NCBI GenBank assembly: GCA_030613225.1
Contig: JAUWMJ010000125.1
Location: 1 to 7,863 of the forward strand
From: Desulfobacterales bacterium
Lineage (GTDB): Bacteria; Desulfobacterota; Desulfobacteria; Desulfobacterales; JAUWMJ01
Length of the DNA stretch: 7,863 nucleotides
Direction: 5' to 3'
Every line of letters starts with the position of its first letter. Position 1 is the first letter of the stretch. This document shows, one piece after another, positions 151 through 4,079 of this stretch. The translations under genes and the position numbers were made by a program. The notes beneath the pieces are model-generated. The model did no database searches, had not been told where the DNA came from, and saw only the letters and a program-made list of their open reading frames with translations.

Positions 151-230
151 ACTTTCCAGTTTATCCGAGTTATGGTATCAACTTTAATACGGCGATGATG
201 GTTAAAACAGACCGGCAGGACATTTATAAT

Positions 231-2513
231 ATGAGTCATTCAATTCTGGATGCCATCGGCAATACACCTATTGTTGAAATAAGAAATCTGAATCCTAACC
301 CAAAAGTGAAAATTCTGGCAAAACTGGAATATTTCAACCCCAGCGGTTCGATCAAGGACAGGGCGGCTCTGTTTATGATTGAGGAGGGTGAAAAATCGGG
401 GCAGCTTACGCCCGATAAAACTGTAATTGAAGCCACAAGTGGAAATACCGGAATAGGTCTAGCCCTTGTTTGTTCTGTTAAGGGATATAAGCTTTTGCTT
501 GCAATGTCCGAGGCGGTAAGTGTTGAACGACAGAAGATTTTAAAGGCCCGTGGTGCAGATATCCTTCTAACTCCGGGTCACCTGGGTACGGATGGCGCCA
601 TTGAAGAGGTTTACAGGCTTGTGCGGGAAAATCCCGAGACCTATTTTTTGACGGATCAATATAATAATGAAGCCAACTGGAAGGCGCACTATTTGACAAC
701 AGCCGTGGAGGTCTGGGAACAGACAGATAGAAAAGTTTCAGTTCTGGTTGCCACAATGGGCACATCCGGAACACTCATGGGCGTATCGAGGAAGCTGAAA
801 GAATACAACCCTGATATACAAATTGTCGGTGTCGAGCCATATCTGGGCCATAAGATCCAGGGTTTAAAGAATATGAAAGAGGCATACTGCCCTGAGATTT
901 TTGAAAAAAGCCGCCTGGATAAAAAAGTAAATATTGATGATGAAGAAGCTTTTGAGATGACAAGACGCCTTGCAAAAGAAGAGGGCATCTTTGTGGGAAT
1001 GAGCAGCGGAGCGGCTATGGTTGTGGCACTGAAAGAAGCTGAAACCATGACTGAAGGCACCATTGTTGTAATCTTGCCGGATAGTGGTGAACGATATTTG
1101 AGCACACCGCTTTTTACTGTAAGGGATAAGACTAAACTGCAGTTGTTTAATACCATGAGCAGGCGCAAGGAGCCTTTTGAGCCGCATCTGCCGGGTAAGG
1201 TTTCCATGTATTCATGCGGTCCCACGGCGCACGCAAGGATGCATGTAGGGGAGATACGGCGGTTTGTATTTTCAGATTTTCTCTGTCGATATCTTGAATA
1301 CAGAGGCTATGAAGTAAAACATATACTTAACATCACAGACCTGGACGATAAAACCATAAACGGCTCTGAAAAGGCGGGTAAAAAGCTTTCAGAATTTACA
1401 GAAAAACACATACAATCTTTTAAAGAGGATCTGGCCGTACTTGGAATCAAGCCTGCGGAAAAATATCCAAGGGCGAGTGAACATATCAACGATATGGTTT
1501 CCCTTGCTGAAAGGCTGACTAAAAAGGGGTTTGCATACGAAAAGCTCCGCAGTTTATATTTTGATATTTCCCGATTTTCCGAATACGGCAGGCTGTCGGG
1601 TATTGACCTAAATAAGATCAAACTGGGCGCAACCGTTGACCTTGATGAATATGAAAAAGATAACCCGCGGGATTTTACGCTTTTTAAAAGATCCAGGCTT
1701 TCAGAGCTGAAAAGGGGAATATATACAAAAACAGACTGGGGCAATGTACGTCCTTCATGGCATATTCAGTGTGCGGCCATAACCATGAAATATCTTGGAG
1801 AAAGCTATGATATTCATACCAGCAGCCGTGAGCTTGTATTTCCCCATCATGAAAACATAATTGCAATTGCCGGTGCAGCAGCCGGAAAATCTCCGGCAAA
1901 ATACTGGGTACATTGTGACCGGGTGCTGGTTGACGGCAAAAAGGTGGATGCAAGAGGCGCCGGTCTTACCCTTAAAGATTTGACGGAGATGGGCTATGGG
2001 GGAAGACAAATCAGGTACTGGCTGTGTTCAAGCCATTATCGAAAGCATGTAATTTTTTCGAAAGAAAGGCTCGAAGATGCCGGGCGATCACTGAAAAGGC
2101 TTGATACATTCATCCGTAGCCTGCATAACGTTAATAAAGGCCGGCATTATTCTGAACTTCAGCAGCTTCTTTACGATATTAAAAATGGTTTTGCCGGTGC
2201 CATGGATGATGATTTGAATATTTCTGCGGCCATGGCCTCTATTTTTAAAGCTGTAAAACGTGTCAACATTCTGATCTCGGAAAAGAAAATAGATACTGAT
2301 GATGCATCAAAGATTGAAGACGCATTCCGTAAAATAGATTCGGTACTGAAAATATTTGATTTTCAGGATGAATATTCCGATTCAAAGGTAGAACAGCTCG
2401 TAGCAAAGAGGGAAAAAGCAAGGTCGGATAAGAACTGGGAACTTGCTGATAAATTGCGTGACAAACTGAAATCCCTGGGGATTTTAGTTCAGGACCGGAG
2501 ATTAAACAAATGA
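231..2513 (+). CDS. Cysteine synthase (CysM/CysK-like) fused to a degenerate cysteinyl-tRNA synthetase-like module
   Basis: Two complete enzymes lie in one 760-aa frame (numbered from ATG 231). Residues 1 to about 295 are a fold-type II PLP cysteine synthase: PLP lysine K42 in PSGSIKDR, TSGNTG 69-74, phosphate loop GTSGT 177-181, SSGAA 258-262 and PDSGERYLS 283-291. The IQGLKNMKEAYCPEIF stretch looks nearer to CysM than to classical CysK. This half should form cysteine from an activated serine and sulfide or a sulfide donor. Residues from about 303 to 760 align along the length of CysRS: zinc cysteine C329 in CGPT, TDLDDK 369-374, WHIQC with W510 and C514, FPHHEN near 537-542, DDDLN 659-663 and the C-terminal LADKLRDKLKSLGI. 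Departures: HVGE 338-341 for HIGH/HIGN, KVDAR 571-575 for KMSKS, I543 for the fourth zinc ligand Glu, TSSREL for GGGSDL, and no terminal GTxWR tail. ATG 231 has AGGA ten bases upstream and matches the usual SILDAIGNTP start; ATG 195 (772 aa) lacks a Shine-Dalgarno. The tRNA-charging role is uncertain. Confidence 0.9.
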   Translation: MSHSILDAIGNTPIVEIRNLNPNPKVKILAKLEYFNPSGSIKDRAALFMIEEGEKSGQLTPDKTVIEATSGNTGIGLALVCSVKGYKLLLAMSEAVSVERQKILKARGADILLTPGHLGTDGAIEEVYRLVRENPETYFLTDQYNNEANWKAHYLTTAVEVWEQTDRKVSVLVATMGTSGTLMGVSRKLKEYNPDIQIVGVEPYLGHKIQGLKNMKEAYCPEIFEKSRLDKKVNIDDEEAFEMTRRLAKEEGIFVGMSSGAAMVVALKEAETMTEGTIVVILPDSGERYLSTPLFTVRDKTKLQLFNTMSRRKEPFEPHLPGKVSMYSCGPTAHARMHVGEIRRFVFSDFLCRYLEYRGYEVKHILNITDLDDKTINGSEKAGKKLSEFTEKHIQSFKEDLAVLGIKPAEKYPRASEHINDMVSLAERLTKKGFAYEKLRSLYFDISRFSEYGRLSGIDLNKIKLGATVDLDEYEKDNPRDFTLFKRSRLSELKRGIYTKTDWGNVRPSWHIQCAAITMKYLGESYDIHTSSRELVFPHHENIIAIAGAAAGKSPAKYWVHCDRVLVDGKKVDARGAGLTLKDLTEMGYGGRQIRYWLCSSHYRKHVIFSKERLEDAGRSLKRLDTFIRSLHNVNKGRHYSELQQLLYDIKNGFAGAMDDDLNISAAMASIFKAVKRVNILISEKKIDTDDASKIEDAFRKIDSVLKIFDFQDEYSDSKVEQLVAKREKARSDKNWELADKLRDKLKSLGILVQDRRLNK

Positions 2514-3547
2514 AGCCGATATATTTCCCATTTACATATATTTCAAAACCGATTGCCGAAGCCCTGCATACCTGCTTTGGAAAGACCATTGTTTATCAGC
2601 CTTCGAGTAAGAACATACCTGAAGAAATTCACAAACTGGCCGAGCGTGGTGTGCTGGACATCCGAATTTCGGGAAAGCCGGAAAAAAAAGACGAGGAAAA
2701 ACTGTCGGCGCTTTTAAAAGATTATAATGCATGGGCAAACCTGCACCAGGGAAGCAGGGGTATTCAACTCGACTTTTTCAAAGCCCGGAAAAATAAAATT
2801 CCCTTTTTTGATGATACATCTACGTCTCAACTCAAGGCTGATATCAAAGATATTGCAGGTGAAAACCCGGCTAGAAAAGAACCTGACCCTTTTTTTAATG
2901 CCAGGATATTTTTGAGTATTGCCCAGAATTTTGATATGCAAAACGATAAGATCGACCTGGATATGGCATCATTTGAAACCGCCCGGATGGATTTAATAAA
3001 AAATTTGAATGGGGAAGATGAGACTTCACCTGTAGTGCCCGGCTACGGAGATGAATTTAAAACCGGCAATTTGGCTGATCATGATCATATGATACCAGAA
3101 CGTATAGAGGCATGGGCCTTATTGATGTGCTGCGATCCGATGCAATGCAGGGATGAAATGTCCGGGCTTTTTGTTACAAGCAGCCGGCAGGCAATCGACT
3201 ATCTTTTGGAAAAAACTCCTGAAACTGAAAATGTGTTTTCAATTGACGCAATACCAATGGTGGAAAATCAGGTTGAAAAAACGGCAAAATGGCCCAAGGA
3301 CCTGATGAAATATCTTGAAATTGTTGCGGAAAGTTCCAGGCCTTTGAAGTGCGATAATTTCACCATAGTTCCTGATGATTTAAAATACGAAACAAAAGTT
3401 TCATTATCTTTATATCTTGTGCCCGGAGTATCGCCTTTGGAGTATTTTTCCCGTTTTACCAGGTTTGATTCTACCTGTGGCGAAATTGAAAAAGATCGAG
3501 TTAAATTTAAAAACACTTTAATCGGACATATTGGTTTTGCTGCTTGA
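2510..3547 (+). CDS. Conserved-looking hypothetical protein, coupled to the cysteine synthase/CysRS fusion
   Basis: I do not recognise a characterised family. The 345-aa protein overlaps the fusion gene by four bases (ATGA at 2510-2513) and has CGGAG nine bases upstream of its ATG, so it is probably co-translated with the fusion. There is no signal peptide and no membrane segment, so it should be cytosolic. The N-terminus (PIYFPFTYISKPIAEAL, then IVYQPSSKNIPEEI) looks like an ordered alpha/beta start. Residues about 56-72 are charged and helical, and 100-130 is polar and probably a linker. A mid-region has DHDH at 190-193 followed by MCCDPMQC (C207, C208, C213). Other cysteines are C22, C281 and C323. 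The Cys/His cluster could bind metal or be redox active, but no standard zinc or Fe-S spacing is present. Codon use looks like its neighbours. It is a real gene by length, coupling and composition; the function is unknown. Confidence 0.85.
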   Translation: MKPIYFPFTYISKPIAEALHTCFGKTIVYQPSSKNIPEEIHKLAERGVLDIRISGKPEKKDEEKLSALLKDYNAWANLHQGSRGIQLDFFKARKNKIPFFDDTSTSQLKADIKDIAGENPARKEPDPFFNARIFLSIAQNFDMQNDKIDLDMASFETARMDLIKNLNGEDETSPVVPGYGDEFKTGNLADHDHMIPERIEAWALLMCCDPMQCRDEMSGLFVTSSRQAIDYLLEKTPETENVFSIDAIPMVENQVEKTAKWPKDLMKYLEIVAESSRPLKCDNFTIVPDDLKYETKVSLSLYLVPGVSPLEYFSRFTRFDSTCGEIEKDRVKFKNTLIGHIGFAA

Positions 3548-4047: not shown

Positions 4048-4079
4048 CCCTGATTCTTTGTTAAAACAAAGAATCAGGG
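4048..4079 (+). terminator. Hairpin downstream of the ferredoxin gene, probable terminator
   Basis: A perfect 15-bp inverted repeat, CCCTGATTCTTTGTT at 4048-4062 and its complement at 4065-4079, lies 19 bases after the ferredoxin stop. On the + strand no T-run follows (GAGCCATACC), so intrinsic termination is not textbook. The structure may instead terminate with help or stabilise the 3' end of the ferredoxin mRNA. On the - strand the hairpin is followed by a weakly T-rich stretch. Confidence 0.65.

Follow-up and report, generated by a model that had tools for sequence, protein, structure and literature searches.

A cysteine synthase fused to a CysRS-derived half with lost ATP motifs and retained anticodon-reading residues

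The 7,863-nt stretch analyzed here (the window; Desulfobacterales bacterium, assembly GCA_030613225.1, contig JAUWMJ010000125.1) encodes a 772-aa fusion protein (195..2513) in which profile matches distinguish a cysteine synthase half and a half derived from cysteinyl-tRNA synthetase (CysRS). Read from sequence, the ATP motifs of this second half are lost, the anticodon-reading motifs and those of the pyridoxal phosphate (PLP) enzyme are retained, relatives own a separate CysRS and CysE is often absent; neither an ordinary CysRS nor an MshC-like ligase fits this pattern well. The reading we favour, to which we give an even chance, is that of a CysM-like cysteine synthase joined to a tRNA-Cys-reading pseudo-synthetase, whose docked tRNA-Cys would set the rate of synthesis. 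Its components differ in strength: adenylation has very probably been lost in the window protein and the fusion is likely to bind tRNA-Cys, while regulation of its cysteine synthesis by tRNA-Cys is held with slightly less than even confidence. A tRNA-gated amino-acid synthase, in which anticodon reading through a dead CysRS would couple cysteine output to tRNA-Cys charging, is proposed more tentatively still.

All features of the fusion gene lie on the + strand. The PLP half (residues 17-308; 243..1118) is a fold-type II PALP domain (PF00291, 242 bits), scoring above the cut-off of TIGR01136 (367.8 bits, cut-off 344.15) and under the equivalog cut-offs of both CysM and CysK. The CysRS-derived half (residues 315-768) consists of a CysRS-like catalytic region (residues 315-629; 1137..2081; PF01406, 267 bits), a DALR_2 domain (2190..2357; PF09190, 38 bits) and CysS_C, the CysRS anticodon-binding domain (2385..2498; PF23493, 30.1 bits, cut-off 23). 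It thus resembles CysRS (TIGR00435) in domain order, in its anticodon domain and in most zinc ligands, and differs from it by lacking KMSKS, GGGSD and the last HIGH position and by being fused to a cysteine synthase.

Alignment with E. coli CysRS, with residue numbers taken from the MG1655 cysS gene, places HVGE (residues 350-353; 1242..1253) at the HIGH position, TSSREL (residues 542-547; 1818..1835) at GGGSDL and KVDAR (residues 583-587; 1941..1955) at KMSKS, so that none of the KMSKS, HIGH and GGGSD motifs of CysRS is found in the window protein. Cys341 (1215..1217) occupies the Cys28 position, Trp522 and Cys526 of WHIQC (residues 522-526; 1758..1772) those of Trp205 and Cys209, and HHENI (1845..1859) retains His234 as His551 with Ile555 (codon 1857-1859) at the Glu238 position. 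Positions 28, 209, 234 and 238, which we take to be those of the zinc ligands, consequently read Cys, Cys, His and Ile instead of the four ligands of CysRS. The motifs lie where the original prediction, made from the letters of the window, had placed them.

How far these losses extend was examined in two sets: a close set of 201 fusions (the window protein, 80 genome loci and the 120 best-scoring database proteins among the matches listed) and a wider set of 91, reduced to 89 for anticodon-domain counts (L187 and L189 dropped). KMSKS was found in 0/201 and 0/91 fusions, compared with both of its lysines in 20/20 stand-alone CysRS rows picked independently of the motif, a difference beyond chance which upholds the predicted loss; judged by these counts, it is a trait of the family. 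These 20 rows provide the fair comparison: the complete set of 40 stand-alone rows holds E. coli, 19 members of the class of Desulfonema magnum (G002; hereafter the class) and 20 of 29 from outside it, the other 9 having been removed by a KM[SA]KS filter, so that the motif is present by construction in those 20. The predicted loss of HIGH stood in part: the pattern H-x-G-[H or N] occurred in 0/201 close fusions and the fourth position was Glu in 187/201, but the first His and the Gly are mostly retained in close relatives. At the Glu238 position, Glu was found in 150/201 and Ile in 21/201; hence the Ile of the window, correctly noticed, is a local variant and not a family trait. Lys73 of the KIIK motif was retained in 43/48 class fusions, while KMSKS is gone.

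Could the protein be an auxiliary CysRS whose unusual ATP site still allows weak charging of tRNA-Cys? It passes the NCBI equivalog cut-off of TIGR00435 (370.2 bits, cut-off 340), its anticodon residues are intact and KMSR- persists in 8/90 relatives. However, the window and most close relatives show changes at the second KMSKS lysine, in GGGSD and at the last position of HIGH, and the relatives own a separate CysRS, so that we consider this very unlikely. The evidence on separate enzymes comes from the genomes of relatives and not from the window's own genome. A stand-alone CysRS of 430-605 bits was present in 19/20 fusion-bearing genomes (all but G007, a draft assembly that may be incomplete) and, at E <= 1e-122, in 185/192 class genomes, where the remaining seven may include scores just under the line. 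Of 30 genomes from outside the class sample, taken from the 94 in which a search of the phylum found the fusion, 29 carried a full-length stand-alone CysRS and 1 a partial one. The fused half therefore need not charge tRNA: canonical charging, predicted to be weak or absent, is probably absent, and a separate ordinary CysRS exists in relatives.

The anticodon domain behaves differently from the ATP site. In E. coli CysRS, Arg427 and Asp436 form hydrogen bonds with G34 of the tRNA-Cys anticodon, Trp432 stacks, and a water network at G34 runs via Asp436 and Arg423 (available part of PMC12684709, citing Hauenstein 2004). The window protein retains the whole G34-contact set as R739, R743, W748 and D752 (2409..2450; E. 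coli R423, R427, W432 and D436), as well as Asp767 (2493..2495), the equivalent of Asp451. Among the 89 fusions with the domain, R423 and D436 were each found in 89/89, position 427 was Arg in 86 and Lys in 3, position 432 was W in 69, F in 14 and Y in 6, and Arg439 and Asp451 were each present in 89/89. All of these positions were also retained in 19/19 fusions missing Cys28 or Cys209, and the G34-contact set likewise in the 11 missing both. We scored the retention of residues conserved in at least 95% of the 40 stand-alone rows. Over residues 1-74, the CP domain, the segment from WHIEC to KMSKS, residues 275-402 and the anticodon domain, mean retention was 0.81, 0.66, 0.53, 0.85 and 0.92 for all 89 fusions, and 0.44, 0.62, 0.34, 0.85 and 0.99 for the 11 without both zinc cysteines. 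That the anticodon contacts have been spared suggests that the signal is tRNA-Cys.

We also considered that the CysRS-derived half serves the cysteine synthase only as a scaffold, for structure or for oligomerisation, and that its anticodon residues are kept for folding. In agreement with this, the PLP half is the best conserved part (its mean pairwise identity in 45 fusions is 0.78, while the catalytic region reaches 0.70 and the DALR/anticodon part 0.51) and the CP segment is close to invariant. Yet the G34 contacts are among the retained residues, these residues lie where conservation is lowest, and only W, F and Y occur at position 432; we regard the scaffold as unlikely. Of 3240 pairs, 172 had dS < 1.5; in the 15 closest of these, the ratio of nonsynonymous to synonymous substitution rates (dN/dS) lay at 0.05-0.14 in the PLP half, 0.06-0.25 in the CysRS catalytic region and 0.07-0.42 in the DALR/anticodon part, indicating that the CysRS-derived regions are under purifying selection.

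Outside the anticodon domain, the equivalents of His234, Trp205, Trp254, Arg290 and Tyr298 are among the core residues that stay, and part of the old active site therefore still matters. His234, Trp254, Arg290 and Tyr298 equivalents persist even in the 11 fusions with the strongest decay. This, like the retained anticodon residues, is compatible with a half acting chemically on tRNA-Cys or aminoacyl-tRNA-Cys, either removing mischarged tRNA-Cys or forming or transferring cysteine on tRNA. We find such chemistry quite unlikely: the PLP half retains a [TS]SGNTG loop, a loop that binds a free carboxylate, so that tRNA-bound substrates would fit poorly, and SepRS was found in just 2/192 class genomes. 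SepRS homologs above the curated cut-off were recorded at two loci (L231 and L232; genomes G004 and G102); the available text of two surveys of SepRS (PMC5424206 and PMC8762117) does not mention the class.

The zinc site gave a mixed picture. The full set Cys28, Cys209, His234 and Glu238 was found together in 141/201 close fusions, which would suit an MshC-like cysteine ligase, or an enzyme of low-molecular-weight thiols or persulfides, as the original prediction had suggested from a preserved cysteine pocket. That pocket is not a common denominator: Cys28 or Cys209 was gone in 19/89 fusions and both in 11/89, and the ATP, zinc and cysteine sites have decayed on several branches of the wider family. 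In a tree of 132 rows, fusions without zinc cysteines sit on several separate branches, and a graded series leads from the near-intact L161 (HLGN, HHENE, KMSRS) to L179 and L190, where no KMSKS, HIGH or zinc cysteines are recognisable. MshC is likewise derived from CysRS and non-translational, but according to the available part of PMC9736012 it retains KMSKS (289-293), used together with the HIGH His, whereas the fusion has lost KMSKS and kept an anticodon domain. Against the MshC model the window protein reached 182 bits (curated cut-off 485), with KMSKS and HIGH both absent. No thiol-biosynthesis genes were found among the recurring fusion neighbours that were identified, which do not include the 345-aa partner protein encoded next to the fusion, whose function is unassigned. 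The ligase or thiol enzyme consequently receives almost no credit from us. As a separate observation, a 2.0-Mb genome (G070) carries two fusion paralogues (L125, 5117-7402; L126, 4623-6902); in each of them Ser stands in place of both Cys28 and Cys209.

The PLP half, for its part, keeps the catalytic motifs of CysM and CysK. Its PLP lysine, K54 in SIKDR (354..356), is Lys in 91/91 fusions and 200/201 close relatives, and the [TS]SGNTG loop as well as Lys225 and Asn226 of the LKNM loop (864..875) were found in 91/91. It departs from CysM and CysK by this last loop, three residues longer than in 12/12 class stand-alone CysK compared, by its occurrence in genomes without CysE and by the pseudo-CysRS attached to it. 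In one genome where no fusion was found (G095), a CysM-like protein that stands alone (L152, 1486-2391) has a QGLKN loop resembling that of the fusion.

CysE (E < 1e-40) was present in 132/192 class genomes and absent in 60; incompleteness alone is insufficient to account for this, as a strong stand-alone CysRS was missed in only 7/192. Outside the class sample, CysE was not found in 21/30 genomes, and in 8 of these 21 one contig spans about the whole genome. Fifty-four class genomes had neither CysE nor a stand-alone CysK at E <= 1e-118, and 53 of them have a stand-alone CysRS; a full fusion was found in 45, a divergent fusion of 819-880 aa in 3, pieces at contig ends in 2 and none in 4. Since the line drawn for CysK is too strict against weaker CysM-type proteins, the fusion can be called the sole cysteine synthase only in genomes with complete match lists: in G004, G013, G016 and G019 it is the only protein above the cysteine-synthase cut-off and CysE is absent, while G007 has an extra relative of 226 bits. 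The divergent fusions (L145, L148 and L149), from genomes without CysE and without a strong stand-alone CysK (G055, G047 and G175), show an unrecognisable KMSKS loop and Leu at the Trp205 position. The absence of CysE in many genomes suggests that the acceptor used by the fusion is not made by CysE; it is probably O-phosphoserine or another non-CysE product. O-phosphoserine is already known as an alternative acceptor: SerC produces it and some CysM enzymes accept it (PMC9855970 and PMC12910592, in the parts available).

A working model would then combine a CysRS-derived half that no longer adenylates cysteine but docks tRNA-Cys and reads its anticodon with a PLP half using O-phosphoserine or another acceptor of non-CysE origin. 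The docked tRNA-Cys, through its amount or charging state, would set the rate of cysteine synthesis, and free cysteine may be a second signal in members with a zinc site. HisZ, a class II protein, works with the short-form ATP phosphoribosyltransferase as a separate subunit that senses histidine, whereas the present protein is class I, fused to its enzyme and in possession of its anticodon-reading residues. The available part of PMC10795190 describes HisZ as a HisRS paralogue without catalytic activity, which senses histidine and controls its synthesis. It is the closest known parallel, being an inactive aminoacyl-tRNA synthetase paralogue joined to an enzyme that makes the same amino acid. 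The fusion shares these two traits: its adenylation motifs are gone and it is attached to the enzyme making the cognate amino acid.

Several observations weigh against the working model. Lys266 and the zinc set persist in many members, which may therefore bind the amino acid or activate it weakly; some members outside the class carry KMSRS, two have H-L-G-N and one reaches 463 bits on the CysRS model. The anticodon-domain residues may be retained for folding, and two fusions, L187 and the outgroup L122, appear without the domain (L189 is cut by a contig end). Among class genomes, presence of the fusion was unassociated with absence of CysE and CysK (Fisher p 0.48), and the fusion is therefore not simply a stand-in for them. 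Finally, the regulatory model leaves unaccounted for the 345-aa partner protein, whose ATG overlaps the fusion stop codon by 4 bases (2510..3547, +).

The fusion is widespread. It was found at E <= 1e-200 in 94/247 genomes in a search of the phylum, of which 40 were sampled for sequences, and at E = 0 in 166/192 class genomes. In the 132-row tree, one branch, whose support of 86 falls short of the starred level of 95, has all 90 fusions on one side; a second branch, with support 66, has the 40 stand-alone CysRS on one side. L122 (3277-5466; the same gene as in L110), a 730-aa outgroup fusion with HLGL and a degenerate KMSKS (KMMSD), adjoins the stand-alone enzymes, and it is therefore not established that all such fusions share one origin. 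Its genome (G014) additionally holds an ordinary fusion and a stand-alone CysRS.

Another noncanonical second CysRS of Desulfobacterales, CysRS* (with selC*/selB*), lacks the anticodon domain and charges the selC* tRNA (PMC9437257 and PMC7609411, in the parts available). The window fusion differs from it by its CysS_C domain. A CysRS*-like protein of 423 aa, with KMSKS and with neither anticodon domain nor fused synthase, was seen at L121 (4400-5668, -), in a genome (G017) that also has a full CysRS and a fusion. In the window no tRNA gene turned up; selB and selC were not searched for.

Elsewhere in the window, a 31-nt inverted repeat (8-138), built from a repeated TAAAGTG-like word, with arms 94% complementary and 69 nt apart, lies directly upstream of the fusion gene, and perfect 15-nt hairpin arms (4048-4079) directly past a ferredoxin gene are terminator-like.

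Across a large protein family, anticodon-reading residues have been retained by selection after the catalytic motifs vanished. Some 'cysteine--tRNA ligase' annotations here, for example in Desulfonema magnum, probably designate a non-charging paralogue, and the gene content suggests that many of these bacteria make cysteine without CysE. If binding is true, the fusion would tie cysteine synthesis to tRNA-Cys directly through a protein; if gating by tRNA is also true, it would parallel tRNA-sensing regulators at the level of an enzyme, and would do so widely within one bacterial phylum.
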